Source: Thermodesulfovibrionales bacterium (GTDB lineage Bacteria > Nitrospirota > Thermodesulfovibrionia > Thermodesulfovibrionales > Dissulfurispiraceae). From it: a DNA stretch of 64,000 bases. A program made the translations under genes and the position numbers. Location: assembly GCA_020062545.1 (NCBI GenBank), contig JAGUWD010000020.1, positions 62,001 to 126,000 of the forward strand, read 5' to 3'. The notes beneath the pieces are model-generated. The model saw only the letters and a program-made list of their open reading frames with translations. It did not search any database and was not told where the DNA came from. Shown here piece after piece: positions 1,871 to 27,801 of the stretch. Each line of letters opens with the position of its first letter. Within the stretch, counting starts at the first letter, position 1.

Positions 1871-2909
1871 AGCGTATCTTTTCTCCTCCTTTTTCTATAA
1901 ATCCAATATTGTAGGCGTCAAAGCCATATTGCTTTAAAGCGGAGATCGAAAGGTCGGAATTTTCTTTAGGTAATACTATAACATATCCGATACCCAGATT
2001 AAAGGTTTTTTTCATATCCTCATCAGGGACATTACCAAGTTTTTTGATAATATTAAATATAGGCGGCACCGGCCATGAGTTTTCTTTTATTACTGCGGTC
2101 AGTCCATCTCCGATTATTCTCGGCACATTGCCCACAATGCCGCCGCCTGTTATATGGGCCATTCCATGAATATCCATCTTATCTTTCAATGCATCGAATG
2201 CCTTCACATATATCTTCGTGGGCTTAAGAAGTTCTTCTCCGATTGTAGTGCCAAGCTCGGGCATGTGTGTATCAACATCGAATTTGACTGCATCGAAAAA
2301 TACCTTCCTTGCAAGGGAATAGCCATTGCTGTGCAGGCCGCTCGATGCTAAGCCTATAATGGCATCCCCCTCTTTTATCTTTGAGCCATCAACGATTTTA
2401 TCTCTATCCACAACGCCAACTGCAAAACCTGCAAGGTCGTATTCTCCTTCCCTATAAAATCCTGGCATCTCTGCTGTCTCTCCACCAATCAATGCACATC
2501 CTGATTCTTTGCAACCCTCTGCAATGCCTTTTACCACATCCTTTGCCTTTTCCGACTTGAGTTTTCCTGTTGCAAAGTAATCGAGGAAAAATAAAGGCTC
2601 CGCACCAAGGGTAAGAATGTCATTTACGCACATCGCCACAAGGTCAATGCCGACTGTGTCGTGCCTGTCCATCATGAATGCAATCTTTAATTTTGTCCCT
2701 ACGCCGTCGGTTCCGCTCACAAGCACCGGCTCTTTATACTTTTTAATATCGAGTTTGAACAATGCGCCAAAAGAGCCTATTTCGGTCATAACCTCTGGCC
2801 TGAACGTCTTTTTCACCAGAGGCGAGATGAGGCTGATAAACCTGTCGCCTTCGTCAATATCAACGCCGGCCTTTTTATATGTTAACTCTTCCATATCACC
2901 CCTAAACAA
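1863..2909 (-). CDS. purM: Phosphoribosylformylglycinamidine cyclo-ligase
   Basis: Full-length PurM sequence: SGTDGVGTKLKIA, VNDILTLGAEPLFFLDYFATG, GGETAEMPGFY. Confidence 0.95.
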   Translation of the reverse strand: MFRGDMEELTYKKAGVDIDEGDRFISLISPLVKKTFRPEVMTEIGSFGALFKLDIKKYKEPVLVSGTDGVGTKLKIAFMMDRHDTVGIDLVAMCVNDILTLGAEPLFFLDYFATGKLKSEKAKDVVKGIAEGCKESGCALIGGETAEMPGFYREGEYDLAGFAVGVVDRDKIVDGSKIKEGDAIIGLASSGLHSNGYSLARKVFFDAVKFDVDTHMPELGTTIGEELLKPTKIYVKAFDALKDKMDIHGMAHITGGGIVGNVPRIIGDGLTAVIKENSWPVPPIFNIIKKLGNVPDEDMKKTFNLGIGYVIVLPKENSDLSISALKQYGFDAYNIGFIEKGGEKIRYV

Positions 2910-3729
2910 ACTTCATGCTTATATCCACAGCCCTTGCAGAGTGTGTCAATGCGCCGATGGATATTATATCAACTCCTGTCTCTGCAATGCCCCTGATATT
3001 TTCGAGATTCACGTTTCCCGATGCTTCGAGAATGGCCTTACCCTTTGCAATCTTTACCGCCTTTTTCATATCAGGGATAGACATGTTATCGAGCATAATG
3101 ACATCAGCCCCTGCATCCAATGCCTCTCTTAATTCATCAAGACTTTTTACTTCGGTCTCAATTTTTAAGAGATGGTGTCCCTTCTTCGCAAGCATAACAG
3201 CCTTTTTCACACCACCTGCAATTTTTATGTGATTGTCTTTGATCAAAATCCCGTCATAAAGCCCGAACCTATGGTTTATTCCTCCGCCAACTCCAACGCC
3301 ATATTTTTCCATGATGCGCATTCCCGGTATGGTCTTTCTGGTATCAGCAATCCTTACAGATAACCCCTCGACTTTTTTTACAAACTGATTTGTCATCGTA
3401 GCAATTCCTGATATGCGCTGCAGTATATTCAATGAAATCCTCTCTCCTGCAAGAAGGCTTCTCGCTCTCCCTGAAATCATGGCGATTATATCGCCCTTTT
3501 TAACATGGGCTCCTTCATCAAAATATATTTGCATTTCAATACCGGGGTCTATCGCATTAAATACTTCCTTTACAAAAGGCATCCCTGCAAGTATAAAATC
3601 TTGCTTTGCAATGATATTCGCCTTGGCTTTTTTCTCCCTGGGAACAATCAAAAGGGATGTTATATCGCCATGTCCTATGTCTTCAAGTATCGCAAGATGA
3701 ATTGTTTCTTTTAAAAGTTCGTTCATCAT
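2902..3729 (-). CDS. nadC: Nicotinate-nucleotide pyrophosphorylase (carboxylating)
   Basis: EDIGHGDITS, ADTRKTIPGMR, KYGVGVGGGINHRFGLYDGILIKDNH, EASGNV. Confidence 0.95.
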   Translation of the reverse strand: MMNELLKETIHLAILEDIGHGDITSLLIVPREKKAKANIIAKQDFILAGMPFVKEVFNAIDPGIEMQIYFDEGAHVKKGDIIAMISGRARSLLAGERISLNILQRISGIATMTNQFVKKVEGLSVRIADTRKTIPGMRIMEKYGVGVGGGINHRFGLYDGILIKDNHIKIAGGVKKAVMLAKKGHHLLKIETEVKSLDELREALDAGADVIMLDNMSIPDMKKAVKIAKGKAILEASGNVNLENIRGIAETGVDIISIGALTHSARAVDISMKFV

Positions 3730-11128: not shown

Positions 11129-11797
11129 CTACCTCGCCTTTTCCTCAAACAACTCTTCTTCCTGTTTATTCTTCATCCTCTTGACGAGTTCTTCGTAAGA
11201 ATTCGTACGTATAATCTTGTTGAACTGTGTCCTGTAGTTGTTTACCAGGCTTACGCCTTCTATTATCACATCATACACTTCCCACTTGCCGTTTTTCCTG
11301 AGAAGTCTGTATTCGATGGGGATTTCGACATTCCTTTTCGTGACTATTTTGGTATTAACTTCGGAGTATTCCCCGTTTATCTTCTCGTCTATATACAGGA
11401 TTTTCTCATCCGTATAGCTCTCTATCTTTTTGATATAAGACCTTTCAAGCAAATCAGTGTATAAAGGTACAAACTCCTTTCTTTCCTCCGGCGTCCTTTT
11501 TCTCCAGTGAAGTGCAAGCGACCTCTTTGCCATTTCTTCAAAATCAAATCTCTCTGATATTGTCTTGCGCAATAATGCCCGGCGTTCTTTTGTTTTTTCA
11601 GGCTTTTTAAGCTCCTTGTTCCTTAATATGTCGAGCACCTTATCAACCGTCTGTTTAACCTGTTGTGTAGGGGTATCGGCATATGCCTCGGAACCAGTAA
11701 TCGGTAACCAGTAGCCAGTAGCCAGTAAAATAGTAACGAGTAACGAGTAACAAGTAACGAGTTTTTTGAATTTTGAATTCTGAATTTTCAATCTCAT
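11129..11797 (-). CDS. mlaC: MlaC/Ttg2D-type phospholipid-binding protein
   Basis: QQVKQTVDKVLDILRN...RFDFEEMAKRSLALHWRKRTPEERKEFVPLYTDLLERSYIKKIESY; downstream of mlaEFD. Confidence 0.9.
   Translation of the reverse strand: MRLKIQNSKFKKLVTCYSLLVTILLATGYWLPITGSEAYADTPTQQVKQTVDKVLDILRNKELKKPEKTKERRALLRKTISERFDFEEMAKRSLALHWRKRTPEERKEFVPLYTDLLERSYIKKIESYTDEKILYIDEKINGEYSEVNTKIVTKRNVEIPIEYRLLRKNGKWEVYDVIIEGVSLVNNYRTQFNKIIRTNSYEELVKRMKNKQEEELFEEKAR
11690..11797. repeat. Heptad repeat tract coincident with MlaC signal peptide codons
   Basis: minus strand ATTCAGA ATTCAAA ATTCAAA then CTCGTTA CTTGTTA CTCGTTA CTCGTTA ... CTGGCTA CTGGCTA CTGGTTA. Confidence 0.88.
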
Positions 11798-11817
11798 AAA
11801 TCCAATGACCTCCTATT

Positions 11818-13167
11818 TTATCTCCCGAAGTCCATTCCTGTTGCGTATAAAAGGTTTGCAAATGACATCCTGTGATTATATATGGAACGGAGATTATTTG
11901 CCTTCATCTGTGCATAAGCCATTGCAGCATCTGCTACTTCCTTTGCATCGCCTATTCCCATATCAAAGTTTGCCACTGCAGCAACAAGCCACTTCCTCGC
12001 ATTTTTATACGCCTTCTCTGTCTCCACAATGTTCTTGTTTGCCTCTTCCATATCAAGATACGCCTTTCTCACCTGAAAAGGTATGGCCTCGTCGGCAAAC
12101 TTTTTCTTCTCCACCAATTTATGATATTCAGCCCTCGCTTCTTTCACCCTTCCCTCTGTAATTCCGAAATCAATAGACCATTTAAGCCCAATAAATGCAG
12201 CGCCGTAAGAATGGTTGAAATTATCATATATATACGGGTTGTCCACTTTATCCCTGTTTGTTGCACCTGCTATGGATGCCTTTAAACCCAAAAACAACTG
12301 GGGATAGTAATTGCTTTTCTCTACACCGACAAGGGCATTTCTTGCGTTCAGTCCTTCTTTAAGCTGGATAAATTCAGGCCTGAGTTTTACAGCATTCTTT
12401 AGATAATTATGCAGATCTTCTGGAATTTTTATTTCGGGTGTCAGGGACATCTCGGCAGTATCAAAATCAGTTCCCCTTGGAAGTCCCATGCTGGTGACAA
12501 GGGCATCCTTTGCAAGAGTAATACCCTTTTCTGCCTCGTTCAAATTTTTATCCACCTCTCCTAAGAATGCCCTGAGCTTAAAAAGATTAACCTCATCTGC
12601 CCATGGAGCTCCTATCTCAATTTGCTTTTCTGCCTTTTTTATAGATTCGACAAGTTCATCCCTGACTTCCAGCACAAGATTTCTCATGTCCTTTGCAAGG
12701 AGAAGGTTGTAATACAATTCCTTAGTTCTTAAAACTATATCCGATGTTTTCTTGTCCACGCCTGCCTTTGCCACTTTTATGCCGCTTAAGGCAGCCTCTC
12801 TATAACTGCTTATCTTTCCGAACGTATATACAGGCTGGATTAATGTCACATCAGCACTGCCGAATATTCCATTAACCGTTGTTGCCACCGATGTATTAAT
12901 TGAAGGGCTTATATATTCCCTTTTTGCTTCTGGGGAAGGCCCTGTTATTGCAAGCACCTCAATTTGAGGATAGACTGCCGAATCCGCCTGCAGCTTTTTA
13001 GATTTATACACTTCTTCTTCATAGCGTGATTCTCCTATCTCTGGACTGATCTCGACGGCTTTTTTAATGCATTGGTCAAGGTTTAAGACAACTTTCTGAT
13101 CCGTATCCTGTCCATAGGCTGGTTGTAAAATCAATAAGCAGAAAACAATCGCCATCCATTTCACCAT
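11818..13167 (-). CDS. TolC-family outer membrane protein
   Basis: LNLDQCIKKAVEISPEIGESRYEEEVYKSKKLQADSAVYPQIEV; AYLDMEEANKNIVETEKAYKNARKWL; signal peptide. Confidence 0.9.
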   Translation of the reverse strand: MVKWMAIVFCLLILQPAYGQDTDQKVVLNLDQCIKKAVEISPEIGESRYEEEVYKSKKLQADSAVYPQIEVLAITGPSPEAKREYISPSINTSVATTVNGIFGSADVTLIQPVYTFGKISSYREAALSGIKVAKAGVDKKTSDIVLRTKELYYNLLLAKDMRNLVLEVRDELVESIKKAEKQIEIGAPWADEVNLFKLRAFLGEVDKNLNEAEKGITLAKDALVTSMGLPRGTDFDTAEMSLTPEIKIPEDLHNYLKNAVKLRPEFIQLKEGLNARNALVGVEKSNYYPQLFLGLKASIAGATNRDKVDNPYIYDNFNHSYGAAFIGLKWSIDFGITEGRVKEARAEYHKLVEKKKFADEAIPFQVRKAYLDMEEANKNIVETEKAYKNARKWLVAAVANFDMGIGDAKEVADAAMAYAQMKANNLRSIYNHRMSFANLLYATGMDFGR

Positions 13168-16265: not shown

Positions 16266-17206
16266 CCAACTTTCAGGCTTCCGATGATCTCATTTATATC
16301 AGACAGCCCTTCCTCCTTAAGAAATCTCTTCAGCCCTTCTGTTATTTCGATTGTCGCAGTCGGATTTACGAAATTTGCAGTGCCAACAGCAACAGCCCTT
16401 GCACCTGCTATTAAGAATTCGAGGGCATCATTGGCGTTCATTATTCCGCCCATGCCTATAATCGGTATCTTCACAACCTTATATACCTCCCAGACCATCC
16501 TCACTGCTATTGGCCTTACAGCAGGACCTGAAAGCCCGCCTGTGTTATTTGCAAGCACCGGCCTCCGTTTTTTCACATCCACAACCATACCGGTTATGGT
16601 ATTTATCAGAGATACCGCATCAGCGCCTGCGTTTTCCGCTACTTTTGCCATAAGACCGATGTCCGTAACATTAGGTGAAAGCTTGACTATCAGGGGAAGT
16701 TTTGTTGCCTTCCTCACAGCAGTTACAACCTGCTCCATTGTTTTAGGATCTGTTCCGAAAACTATCCATCCTGCCTGCTTATTCGGGCATGATATATTCA
16801 TCTCAAGGGCATGGACACCTTCTGCATTGCTTAGCACCTCTGCTGCATGAATATATTCATCTATGCTGTCTCCAAAAAAATTTGCAATGACAGGGGTTTT
16901 AAATTGTTTTAGAAATGGAAGTTTCTCCTTTATAAATGTCTCAACACCTATATTTTGAAGTCCAATGGCATTGAGCATTCCTGCAGGTGTTTCCACAATT
17001 CTCGGTGTAGGATTCCCTTGTCTCGGTGTGATGGAAAGCCCTTTAACAACAATAGCTCCAAGCATGCTCAAATCGAGAAACTCTGAATATTCCTCTCCGT
17101 ATCCGAATGTACCTGATGCGGTCATCACAGGATTCTTAAGCTTTAATCCCGCGATATCTACCGATAAGTTCGGGGTTCTGAGTTCGGAGTTTGGAGTTAT
17201 TCCCAT
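16259..17206 (-). CDS. pyrD: Dihydroorotate dehydrogenase B, catalytic subunit
   Basis: [17 protein letters not shown]...[30 protein letters not shown]...NISCPN...[16 protein letters not shown]. Confidence 0.95.
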
Positions 17207-18015
17207 ATAATATCCTTTATGTCAAATACAGGTCCTTCTTTGCAAACTCTTTTGTAAATCCATTTCTGGCTACTATCTACGGTCTCCTGACCCCTGACTT
17301 TTACAACACAGCCAAGACACGCACCTACACCACATGCCATGTGTTCTTCCATGGAAACATAACACTCAATAATTTGGGATTTGGGATTTTGGATTTGGGA
17401 TTTTATAATGCGATGGAGTTCTTTCAACATCGGTGTTGGGCCACAGGCATATATGCGTGATGCGTGATGCGTAATGCGTGATGGGTTAAGAAAATCGATT
17501 AAAGAATCTGTTATCAATCCTTTCTTACCTTCAGAGCCGTCATCTGTAGTTATAAATGTTTCTTTTGATATCCCCTTTGCTGCATCTATCATTACCAGTT
17601 CTTCCTTGTTCCTCGCACCATAGAAAAGATATGCCCTGTTTTTAAATCTATCAAGAAGTGGCAATAACGAGGCAATTCCTATTCCTCCTGCAAGGGCAAT
17701 AAAGTCCCCGTCAGGCACTGGATAACTATTTCCAAGTGGACCGATTACATTAATAATATCTCCGCTTTTAAGACGCGAAAGCGATAGTGTCCCTTTGCCC
17801 CTTATCCTGTAAAGAAAGCTCAGCAAATTGTCTTCATATCTGAAAATACTAAAAGGCCGTTTTAAAAGCGGATCGCAGGTATCGCCAGCCTGAAGCATAT
17901 AGAATTGACCGGGTTGAGGAATGTCTATGTCCGATAATGGACTGAGATTTAATAAACTGAAGTGTTTGTTTAAAGAGAAGTTATCAACTGTCTTTGCTTT
18001 AAAATATTTAGACAA
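17197..18015 (-). CDS. pyrK: Dihydroorotate dehydrogenase electron transfer subunit
   Basis: [22 protein letters not shown]...[14 protein letters not shown]...[12 protein letters not shown]...[18 protein letters not shown]. Confidence 0.93.
17371..17485. repeat. Two short heptad repeat tracts inside pyrK
   Basis: aatttgggatttgggattttggatttgggatttt (17371-17404) and atatgcgtgatgcgtgatgcgtaatgcgtgatggg (17451-17485). Confidence 0.85.
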
Positions 18016-24439: not shown

Positions 24440-25128
24440 CCAATCATGCCCGTTGGATCTACCGGCACCCCGTCTTTCCTTACCTCAAAGTGCAGATGGG
24501 GACCTGTGGACCTCCCGGATGAGCCTGACAGTGACAAAATGCTATTTTTATCAACAACATCGCCGGTCTTTACGAGATTTAAAGAATTATGGGCATAAAG
24601 GCTGGTCAGTCCATTCCCATGATCCACAATTACAGTGTTACCATATCCAGACAACAGCCCGCTGAATACCACCTTTCCTTCTCTGGCAGCTTTTACATGG
24701 CTGCCTTCGGGCATTGCAATATCTATTCCGTTGTGATGCCTCAGCCTTCCATCAATAGGGTCATGCCTCAAACCGTATCTTGAAGTCACTTTACCCACTG
24801 CAGGAAGTTTCAGTTTTCCGTCAAATAATAAAGTGTTTTGAGGTAACGTATTTGGGGATTTTGTATCCTGAATGCCTGCTGATGGGGTCCTTAAAAAGAA
24901 ATCACCAACGCCTATGCCCCTTTCGGTAATAGACCTGGCAATCTCTGATGTTATATAAGGCATATAAGTCGAAACAGTCCTGTCTTTGCCAAAGGATGTC
25001 TGCTCCATCATTATCCTTAAAAACTCGTTCAAAAAAACGGTTTCTATCTGCTTTGCCATGACCTTTGGGTCTGTTGAGTCCTTGATTTGGAACTCAGGAT
25101 TTGGAGTTATGCCTGTTACTGTCTTCAC
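24436..25128 (-). CDS. FlgJ rod-binding domain fused to M23 peptidase
   Basis: N-term MAKQIETVFLNEFLRIMMEQTSFGKD...ITSEIARSITERGIGVGDFFL; C-term RHHNGIDIAMPEGSHVKAAREGKVVFSG...GPHLHFEVRKDGVPVDP. Confidence 0.9.
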   Translation of the reverse strand: MKTVTGITPNPEFQIKDSTDPKVMAKQIETVFLNEFLRIMMEQTSFGKDRTVSTYMPYITSEIARSITERGIGVGDFFLRTPSAGIQDTKSPNTLPQNTLLFDGKLKLPAVGKVTSRYGLRHDPIDGRLRHHNGIDIAMPEGSHVKAAREGKVVFSGLLSGYGNTVIVDHGNGLTSLYAHNSLNLVKTGDVVDKNSILSLSGSSGRSTGPHLHFEVRKDGVPVDPTGMIG

Positions 25129-26285
25129 ATTATCACCAGTTCTGCCTTAAGACTTCCGGATGTCTTAATTGCTTGCAAAATTGCTATCAGATCCTTTGGC
25201 GTTACACCCAACACGTTGAGTGCCTTGACAAGTTCGCCGATTGTTGTTCCCTTTACCTCTACCAATGGCGCCTTTTTCTCTTCTGCCTTCATTTCTATTT
25301 TTGGAACAACCGCTGTTGCAGCCTTTTCAGGTGCCAACGGAGGAGGTTGCGATACCTGATATTCAACTTTTATCTCTATAGTTAATCCTCCGTGGGCAAG
25401 GGCAATTGGACTGATGGTTACATTGTCTCCTATGACAATTGTGCCTGTCTTTTCATTGATAACAACCCTCGCAGGCACATCCACATCAACATTTATGAGT
25501 TCTATTTTTGACATCAAATCCACTACCCTGTTCGCATAGGCATCAGGTACTTTTATGGAGACAACAGAAGGACCCTCGGCCCTGGCAAAGACCCCTCCAA
25601 GACCCATATTGATCCTATCAGCGGTCTTTTTGGCGGTTGTAATATCCTGAACGGTCAACAAGAGATCCAGCCTGTTTTTGTCGTTTAATTGCACAGGCAC
25701 CTCTTTCTCCACAATTGCGCCGTTAGGCACAGTGCCTACATTTGGATGGTTCTTAATTGCCTGCGCACCGGCGCCACCGGCCAGAAATCCGCCGATAGAT
25801 ACAGGGCCCTGTGCAACTGCATAGACATTTCCATCAGGCCCCCTCAAAGGCGCCATTAAAAGAGTTCCTCCCTGAAGACTCTTTGCATCTCCGATGGACG
25901 ATACCTGCACATCCACCTTTGATCCAGGCTTTACCATAGTGGGCAGTTTTGCAGTAACTATTACTGCTGCTATATTCTTTGTCTTTCCCTTTATATCAGC
26001 AGCATTAACGCTGATCCCCATTCTGGTGAGCATATTGGCAAAGGGCTGGAATATGTACGTTCCGTCCTTATCGCCTGTCCCGTTGAGTCCGACAACAAGA
26101 CCGTATCCTATAAGTTCATTTTCCCTTATGCCGGAGAACGTGGCAATGTCTTTTATACGCTCGGCATGAGCAGAAGACAGAATACAGATAACAGATAACA
26201 GAGCACAGATAACAGAATATAGAGATGTCTTTCTCTGTCTGACTTCTGACTCCTGACTTCTGTCTTCTGTCGTTAGAATGGCCAT
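25125..26285 (-). CDS. flgI: Flagellar P-ring protein FlgI
   Basis: ERIKDIATFSGIRENELIGYGLVVGLNGTGDKDGTYIFQPFANMLTRMGI. Confidence 0.96.
   Translation of the reverse strand: MAILTTEDRSQESEVRQRKTSLYSVICALLSVICILSSAHAERIKDIATFSGIRENELIGYGLVVGLNGTGDKDGTYIFQPFANMLTRMGISVNAADIKGKTKNIAAVIVTAKLPTMVKPGSKVDVQVSSIGDAKSLQGGTLLMAPLRGPDGNVYAVAQGPVSIGGFLAGGAGAQAIKNHPNVGTVPNGAIVEKEVPVQLNDKNRLDLLLTVQDITTAKKTADRINMGLGGVFARAEGPSVVSIKVPDAYANRVVDLMSKIELINVDVDVPARVVINEKTGTIVIGDNVTISPIALAHGGLTIEIKVEYQVSQPPPLAPEKAATAVVPKIEMKAEEKKAPLVEVKGTTIGELVKALNVLGVTPKDLIAILQAIKTSGSLKAELVIM
26166..26278. repeat. Heptad repeats coincident with FlgI N-terminus and signal peptide
   Basis: cagaagacagaatacagataacagataacagagcacagataacagaatatagag ... 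ctctgtctgacttctgactcctgacttctgtcttctgtc. Confidence 0.9.
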
Positions 26286-27052
26286 ACCTTATCCAAAAAC
26301 CTCACCAACCAGCCCTGAGACTGCTTGTCATCCAGAACGCCGTCACCCACAAGATATATCTGGGCATCAGCCACATACTGCGATGAAATCGTATTATTCG
26401 GGGCTATATCATCAGGTCTGACAATACCCCTCAATACCAGTATCTCCTTTTCATTGTTCACTACGACCTCTTTCCTCGATTCAAGTACCAAATTTGAATT
26501 AGGCAAAACCTCCACAACTTTTGCCGTTACAGTTCCCGCAAGCTTGCCTTCCCTTGTTGTATCGCCTTTTCCTTTGAAATCGGATCCGGCCTTTCCTTTA
26601 GCAGACGGAGAAAACACATTCGTGCCTTTATAAAACCCATTTACCATGGGGAGCTTCTGTATGCCAAAGTCCGTATCCATACCGAAAAAATTCTCCAATC
26701 CATAATCACCAGAAGAATCACGGCTCGCATTAGTTGTTGCCTTTTTGGATGCAGTGGACTTTTCATTAATCAGTATGGTCACAAGGTCATTTACCCTTTT
26801 TGCCCTCCTGTCTTCAAAAAGGGATGCGCTGTCCTTCCACAGAGAACCTTCGGAAGAATAAATTTCTTTCTCCTTTGTCTCCACATACCTTGGCGGCATA
26901 GGCGCATTTTTTATCTCGCGAGCCTCTTTTAAACCGGAAGCACAACCAAACAAAACAGTAGCCAGTAACCAGTAGCCAGTAACTAATACGTAACGAGTAA
27001 CGAGTTTTTTTAACGCTTTACGATTGACGCTCCACGCTTGACGCTTTTTCAT
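26273..27052 (-). CDS. flgH: Flagellar L-ring lipoprotein FlgH
   Basis: Lipobox LFGC; LFEDRRAKRVNDLVTILINEKSTASKKATTNASRDSS; QYVADAQIYLVGDGVLDDKQSQGWLVRFLDKVWPF. Confidence 0.95.
   Translation of the reverse strand: MKKRQAWSVNRKALKKLVTRYVLVTGYWLLATVLFGCASGLKEAREIKNAPMPPRYVETKEKEIYSSEGSLWKDSASLFEDRRAKRVNDLVTILINEKSTASKKATTNASRDSSGDYGLENFFGMDTDFGIQKLPMVNGFYKGTNVFSPSAKGKAGSDFKGKGDTTREGKLAGTVTAKVVEVLPNSNLVLESRKEVVVNNEKEILVLRGIVRPDDIAPNNTISSQYVADAQIYLVGDGVLDDKQSQGWLVRFLDKVWPF
26956..27050. repeat. Heptad repeats coincident with FlgH signal peptide
   Basis: minus strand GCGTCAA GCGTGGA GCGTCAA TCGTAAA GCGTTAA then CTCGTTA CTCGTTA ... CTGGCTA CTGGTTA CTGGCTA. Confidence 0.9.
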
Positions 27053-27801
27053 ATCTTCACCCTCACTGTATTCGGTGATATTAAGACCCCGATAACCTCC
27101 TTTTTGGAGACATCACATAATACTTTCGCTGTTCCACCTACCACTGTGTCATTTTTCAATATTCCATGAGTCGATATAGCAACATTATCCCCTTCCACCA
27201 CAACATCCACCCTTTGTCCTCTTTTAATGCTCAACTGATTTGTCAGGTAATCGGCCCTTATAATAACTCCCTGTCCAATGTTGTTTTTAAGTATCTTTTT
27301 TTCAACATCATTTCTGCCCAGTACAGCACCAACAGGCAGTTTCGAGCTTTTTTGCTTTACAGCATAAAAATCATCCGCTGTTAGTACAGTCCCCTTTGTA
27401 AGGGGTCTTGAAGAAATAAAAACATCCACAAGAACATCATAAGACGCTTCAACAATTATATTTTTTCTACTCATTCTCTTCTTATCTCTAAGGTCAACCA
27501 TAAAATTCACTTTATTACGGCCAGCATATCCATTCATCGCAACAGCATTGATTTTATAGCCCTCTAAATTTTCTAAAGCATCCATCCCTTCAAGCACCCT
27601 CAGACCGGTAATTTCAACATCTTCAGAAACCGAATTTTTCAGCTCCCTCAGTATCATCCGGTTAATATCTGACATCAGGTTTTCCTTTTCAGCAGATTCA
27701 GATATACCGGTGAGCAGTAAGCAGTAAGCGCTAAGCACTAACAGATAGAAGATTATTTTCTTCCTATCGCCTATTGCCAATTGCCTATCGCCTTTCATCA
27801 T
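27049..27801 (-). CDS. flgA: Flagella basal body P-ring formation protein FlgA
   Basis: SSRPLTKGTVLTADDFYAVKQKSSKLPVGAV...GQGVIIRADYLTNQLSIKRGQRVDVVVEGDNVAISTHGILKNDTVVGGTAKV. Confidence 0.93.
   Translation of the reverse strand: MMKGDRQLAIGDRKKIIFYLLVLSAYCLLLTGISESAEKENLMSDINRMILRELKNSVSEDVEITGLRVLEGMDALENLEGYKINAVAMNGYAGRNKVNFMVDLRDKKRMSRKNIIVEASYDVLVDVFISSRPLTKGTVLTADDFYAVKQKSSKLPVGAVLGRNDVEKKILKNNIGQGVIIRADYLTNQLSIKRGQRVDVVVEGDNVAISTHGILKNDTVVGGTAKVLCDVSKKEVIGVLISPNTVRVKI
27708..27795. repeat. Heptad repeats coincident with FlgA signal peptide
   Basis: ggtgagcagtaagcagtaagcgctaagcactaac and cctatcgcctattgccaattgcctatcgcc. Confidence 0.85.

Follow-up and report, generated by a model that had tools for sequence, protein, structure and literature searches.

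Heptanucleotide arrays as coding sequence of predicted signal peptides in MlaC and other exported proteins of a Nitrospirota family

Repeats whose length is not a multiple of three are reportedly, in an argument due to Ohno, good raw material for coding sequence, all three frames saying the same. Repeated DNA is also found in frame at tolerant sites of essential proteins in the form of the Rickettsia palindromic elements; these are longer, structured palindromes, whereas the DNA described here consists of short tandem heptads. In neuO of Escherichia coli K1 the poly-psi VNTR AAGACTC in the 5′ coding region encodes RLKTQDS, and the downstream frame is preserved only when the number of units is a multiple of three (PMC3046976, PMC13001214). 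Geobacter metallireducens has 49 copies of heptanucleotide elements with the consensus GGACCGG, located both between and within genes (PMC2700814). For the TAACTGA repeats of Beggiatoaceae and cyanobacteria, MacGregor (2015) noted that some ORFs contain an open LSVISYQ cycle (PMC4679880). The tandem repeats of Borgs evolve fast within ORFs, all ORF units are divisible by 3, and the repeat proteins are enriched in signal peptides (PMC9879509).

The locus described here, the mlaC gene of an uncultured Nitrospirota bacterium, shares with neuO a tandem 7-nt unit within the 5′ coding region and a heptapeptide cycle. The neuO array, however, is long and perfect, works as an on/off switch and encodes a hydrophilic extension of an enzyme. 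The Nitrospirota arrays are short and imperfect, none being long and near-perfect; they are of many words, lie in signal peptides and loops, and no off state was seen between species. Borg ORF repeats encode disordered regions, whereas here the unit is seven and the repeat itself would be the signal peptide. In the literature covered, largely other than subscription papers, we found no report of heptad-built signal peptides or of one word replacing another at orthologous sites.

The MlaC leader and its reading frames

The window, a stretch of 64,000 nucleotides, belongs to a metagenome-assembled genome (G000). Its minus strand carries an MlaC gene adjoined by genes for MlaD, an MlaF-type ATPase and MlaE, as in an mla operon; proteins of the MlaC family are located in the periplasm. 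Features are listed in Table 1.

Table 1. Positions of heptad-encoded leaders, their component arrays and gene-internal arrays (window coordinates unless a locus is named)
Feature	Position	Strand	Basis
MlaC, periplasmic phospholipid-binding protein, heptad-encoded leader	11129..11797	-	Pfam PF05494, E 1e-51, residues 48-209; PDB MlaC/Ttg2D matches
AGGAGG, Shine-Dalgarno-like, 5′ of the MlaC ATG	11809..11814	-	sequence
MlaC array 1, sense unit ATTCAAA, encodes n-region IQNSKFK	11764..11786	-	TTTTGAA on plus strand
MlaC array 2, sense unit CTCGTTA, encodes first half of h-region, LVTCYSLLVT	11732..11762	-	array unit AGTAACG
MlaC array 3, sense unit CTGGCTA, encodes second half of h-region, LATGYWLP	11697..11727	-	array unit GTAGCCA
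MlaC c-region SEAYA, non-repeat, AxA cleavage motif before D41	11678..11692	-	sequence; SEAYAD common to G003
Gene-internal heptad array, hydrophilic 12-residue peptide	17372..17403	-	array scan
Gene-internal heptad array, 10-residue peptide	17453..17483	-	array scan
FlgI, heptad n-region TEDRSQESEVR (array 26238-26271) and h-region SVICALLSVICILSS (array 26171-26216)	25125..26285	-	Pfam FlgI, 8e-128
FlgH lipoprotein, heptad leader (array 26956-26981), lipobox LFGC	26276..27052	-	Pfam FlgH, 4e-59
FlgA, heptad n-region (27763-27793) and h-region (27713-27741)	27049..27801	-	Pfam ChapFlgA, 2e-21
murE, murF, murD, murB cluster, unusually rich in gene-internal arrays	L141:5959-7416, 2303-3715, 621-2309, 11496-12332	+	

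Translation of the minus strand gives the N-terminus of the MlaC ORF as MRLKIQNSKFKKLVTCYSLLVTILLATGYWLPITGSEAYA followed by DTP. Codons 1-35 are made up of three heptanucleotide arrays of three to four imperfect units, each detected independently in the array scan. A preliminary description of this DNA had proposed that heptad repeats encode the leader at 11690-11797 on the minus strand. This was borne out: over these 108 nt the identity at lag 7 is 0.69, whereas the best of 5000 dinucleotide-preserving shuffles, searched over lags 4 to 14, reached 0.46. The sequence quoted there for codons 1-34 also reads as given, but the quoted peptide has 35 residues, and the SEAYA that ends the leader is non-repeat.

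The encoded peptide has the layout of a signal peptide. Its n-region, MRLKIQNSKFKK, contains five basic residues (R2, K4, K9, K11 and K12) and no acidic ones. The h-region, LVTCYSLLVTILLATGYWL, is hydrophobic, with a mean KD value of 1.75 versus 1.5 in non-repeat orthologues. SEAYA/D fits an AxA cleavage motif preceding the mature domain, and this is the predicted site; AYA precedes the mature start in G003 (the sister genome, of the same genus), in G001 and in other MlaC orthologues, and VYA does so in G002. The preliminary description had named use of a non-repeat start further downstream as one finding that would refute its reading. Among in-frame ATG, GTG and TTG codons, there is a TTG at codon 3 and then none until a GTG at codon 54, within the mature domain. 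Since no start lies between codon 3 and the mature domain, the leader is the signal peptide of MlaC, if MlaC is exported. The n- and h-regions of a Sec signal peptide, whose export and cleavage are predicted from sequence, are thus probably encoded by the heptad DNA. If so, this is an actual example in which a repeat has furnished essential envelope genes with a working targeting signal.

Because seven is not a multiple of three, a stop-free heptad array can be read through in each of the three frames, always as a single heptapeptide cycle. Computation confirmed the earlier statement that (CTGGCTA)n gives LATGYWL in every frame. Of all heptad classes, 69% have no stop in any frame, and about 12% combine this with a mean hydropathy above 1. 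Heptad leaders make Ohno's idea testable.

Comparison of orthologues provided a natural case. The MlaC leader of G003, MRFKIQNSRNLLLATRYSLLVAVLLAAIYYLLVTGSEAYAD, is heptad-encoded and equal in length to that of G000. When the two leader DNAs were aligned at low gap cost, a 52-nt segment matched at 47/52 positions with a -7/+7 indel pair, versus 39/52 ungapped; raising the gap cost favours the ungapped alignment. The alignments make an indel pair between the two genomes well supported but not certain. Within this segment of about 52 nt G000 and G003 use different frames, and both leaders are basic and then hydrophobic; an unused frame of G003 encodes IQNSKFKKLITCYSLLVT, which nearly reproduces the G000 peptide. 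A local frameshift would therefore appear to leave the encoded MlaC signal working in outline. This one compensated pair, between species, is the copy-number change observed at MlaC, and all orthologues in the leader comparison are in frame. The heptad peptide is indifferent to frame and the protein downstream is not: an uncompensated one-unit indel shifts the frame of the mature protein, and therefore only three-unit or paired, compensated changes are tolerated. The frame independence previously claimed is accordingly a property of the leader peptide, as G000 and G003 illustrate, and does not extend to the mature protein.

Among other relatives, G002 has a decayed version of the heptad leader, while G001 and two genomes of genus g13 have short non-repeat leaders that are mutually similar (MRIIKLFFVLFFIF.., MRGVRSFFAVFFIF..). 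In the MlaC tree the genus forms a clade with poorly resolved internal branching, and a 961-column FlgI+MurD+MlaC tree does not settle that branching either. The description of the G000 leader as de novo draws partial support from the common, ancestral-looking leader of G001 and the two g13 genomes, but gain and loss of the heptad leader are inseparable because the trees do not fix the branching inside the genus. The expectation that the replacement would be confined to one lineage and one gene failed. G005, which belongs to another genus, and L150, a locus of a named Nitrospirae MAG, have MlaC heptad leaders of their own, and so do many other exported proteins; a single lineage-specific event in MlaC is thereby ruled out, and the scope of the arrays had been understated.

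Heptad peptides in other exported proteins and in loops

The window also contains heptad leaders on three flagellar genes, flgI, flgH and flgA (Table 1). Searching with the MlaC leader alone, retaining matches after inspection and adding orthologues gave 33 heptad leaders across eight genomes (seven of the family, and L150). Besides MlaC, FlgI, FlgH and FlgA, such leaders occur in the relatives on envelope or exported proteins of about 13 other families. By Pfam name these are a D-Ala-D-Ala carboxypeptidase (DacC-type), HtrA-type protease, TlpA-like thioredoxin, TolB, LptA, SpoIID-like, M16 and M48 peptidases, outer-membrane efflux protein (OEP), lytic transglycosylase, LysM/NlpC, FecR and TPR proteins. 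Several heptad-leader proteins have a lipobox and are lipoproteins.

In FlgI the words found at one site, before the conserved HAERIKD, differ between relatives: CTGTTAT in G000 and G003, CTGTCTT in G002, GTTCACT in G001 and GTTACTC in G018. No heptad array was found in the FlgI h-region of 18 of the 27 family genomes, so that the repeats are not required there. Mean hydropathy is +1.50 for h-region arrays versus -0.93 for gene-internal arrays (P = 4e-13), a contrast inflated by the use of a hydrophobic leader as the query with which the leader set was collected; for n-region arrays the mean is -0.92.

A heptad array that may encode KFKIQNSKNSLLVT is present at L099 (G005:C29:2200-4800), in frame and directly upstream of a possible CobQ-type gene, an assignment that we presume from its appearance.

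Gene-internal arrays follow a similar course in the peptidoglycan genes. MurD has heptad peptides at the same loop sites with words that differ by species (ISNFKFQISNF, SLLVTRYSLL, KIGNRQWAIGNR, RVKSQESRVK), and the four arrays in G000 MurD sit at insertions relative to the solved MurD structure 3lk7. Loops of MurE, MurF and MurB, named by Pfam, show the same pattern of species-specific words at orthologous sites. In the window, the arrays at 17372-17403 and 17453-17483 (minus strand) are both within one called gene, 17197-17898, beside a motif of 12 residues; the gene may encode a PyrK-like subunit. At L104 (G005:C28:12000-12989) a plus-strand ORF, in which the stretch LFVNDRKMRELN..TTDVLSFP resembles YbeY, is open across several different repeat stretches, including heptads of the AAAATTC and CTCGTTA types.

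Annotation of these bacteria should take account of repeat-derived peptides such as FKIQNSK, LVTRYSL and RSQKSEV, which confound both homology judged from N-termini and the calling of start sites.

Array census in the genome and its relatives

A sample of 464 kb of G000, comprising the window and 20 fixed stretches of 20 kb (18% of the genome), was scanned for arrays. We found 68 arrays at lag 7, about one per 7 kb; at the same threshold, lags 5, 6, 8, 9, 10 and 11 gave 1, 0, 16, 6, 1 and 2 arrays. This departs from the divisibility by 3 of Borg ORF units: lag 7 has 68 arrays, lag 6 none and lag 9 six. The smaller excess at lag 8, seen in the window and L130-L149, suggests that octamer arrays arise too.

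As judged with a crude, home-made gene caller, 40 of the 68 lag-7 arrays are gene-internal, 14 are intergenic, 13 lie in the first 50 codons and one is C-terminal; 45 words are represented among them. The TAACTGA repeats and the cyanobacterial STRR heptamers are likewise tandem heptamers spread over the genome. The TAACTGA type, however, is mostly intergenic and of one word, with ORF copies mainly at the ends of hypothetical proteins; the arrays of G000 are neither predominantly intergenic nor limited to one or a few words. The Geobacter elements, in the part of the published account drawn on here, form one consensus family that is read as regulatory, with no coding role proposed, as against the 45 words in 464 kb.

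Signal-peptide-like regions, called with an equally crude home-made procedure and not with a trained predictor, make up 2.2% of the sample and hold 10 of the 68 arrays (P = 3e-6). Compared with other N-termini, their excess of arrays is about fourfold (P = 0.015, from counts assembled by hand).

Array density across the family samples ranges from 30 per 100 kb in G015 to none in G004, G008, G009 and G023, a range that is partly due to the small size of the samples, some being single 20-kb stretches. Of 296 genomes in the phylum, 21 contain the sequence (AAAATTC)3, and almost all of these belong to the same order or class. Eleven of 25 words are common to different genera, where by our estimate a uniform draw from 1172 classes would give about one. 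The presence of orthologous arrays in separately assembled relatives argues against assembly error.

Origin of the arrays

These observations would best be explained by a process, common to the family, that makes short heptanucleotide arrays or imports them into the chromosome, inside and between genes. The arrays would persist in coding DNA at places that accept any short peptide, such as surface loops and N-termini, as long as they add a multiple of 3 nucleotides overall or are offset by a change close by. Words may be exchanged or imported between sites, as the 11 words common to genera suggest. Selection would then filter them by site: hydrophobic cycles (LVTRYSL, LATGYWL, SVICLLS, LFTVHCS) would persist in the h-regions of signal peptides, and n-regions and loops would keep hydrophilic cycles (FKIQNSK, RSQKSEV, ISNFKFQ). 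We give this reading as a whole a probability of roughly 0.8. The arrays, their positions and frames, the differing words at orthologous sites and the hydropathy contrast are observed; the mechanism that generates arrays, the part played by selection, and export and cleavage are inferred.

The most serious alternative is slippage in place, by which ordinary signal-peptide codons turned repetitive locally, with no imported array, and words came to resemble each other by convergence on hydrophobic codons. It suits arrays that are local and often imperfect and signal peptides that are loosely constrained, and polymerase slippage has been invoked for over-representation of heptamers (PMC4692102). 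Identical words, however, recur across genera, and the hydrophilic words of n-regions and loops do not converge on hydrophobicity. Furthermore, unrelated words stand at orthologous sites of related species, which suggests replacement and not expansion of the local sequence. We consider slippage a possible but doubtful source.

A stronger form of the preferred reading, in which an active, dedicated process writes and rewrites heptad words at preferred tolerant coding sites and so supplies new signal peptides and surface loops irrespective of frame, is offered more tentatively still. Were it correct, a unit that is not a multiple of 3 would be what makes such rewriting survivable.

An inverted-repeat element, with the n- and h-region arrays as the arms of a hairpin whose reverse complements encode a hydrophilic and then a hydrophobic peptide, would account for clear cases in two lipoproteins of G018, a G012 protein, DacC of G012 and FlgI of G000. 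It agrees as well with the anticorrelation (r = -0.71) between the hydropathy of a heptad and that of its own reverse complement. Over the 33 leaders, however, pairing was not above that of cross-paired controls (P = 0.13), and MlaC was among the lowest scores. As a general origin of n- and h-regions we therefore rejected the hairpin, which is real in about a quarter of leaders and absent in MlaC; as the explanation of the arrays it is improbable.

Still less probable is a phase-variation switch, in which gain or loss of one heptad toggles MlaC off and on. The arrangement matches that of neuO, whose 7-nt unit likewise lies in the 5′ coding region (PMC3046976, PMC13001214), but the MlaC arrays have just three to four imperfect units, and the sole change observed is a compensated pair that leaves the protein intact, every MlaC compared being in frame. 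Repeat DNA near starts is often a sign of misannotation, but an untranslated or unused MlaC leader with a start downstream is scarcely credible given the position of the next in-frame start, the AGGAGG before the ATG and the leader of equal length in G003.

At three loci, L111, L113 and L177, the n- and h-region arrays are mutually reverse-complementary and the leader DNA could form a hairpin; such leaders are a minority.
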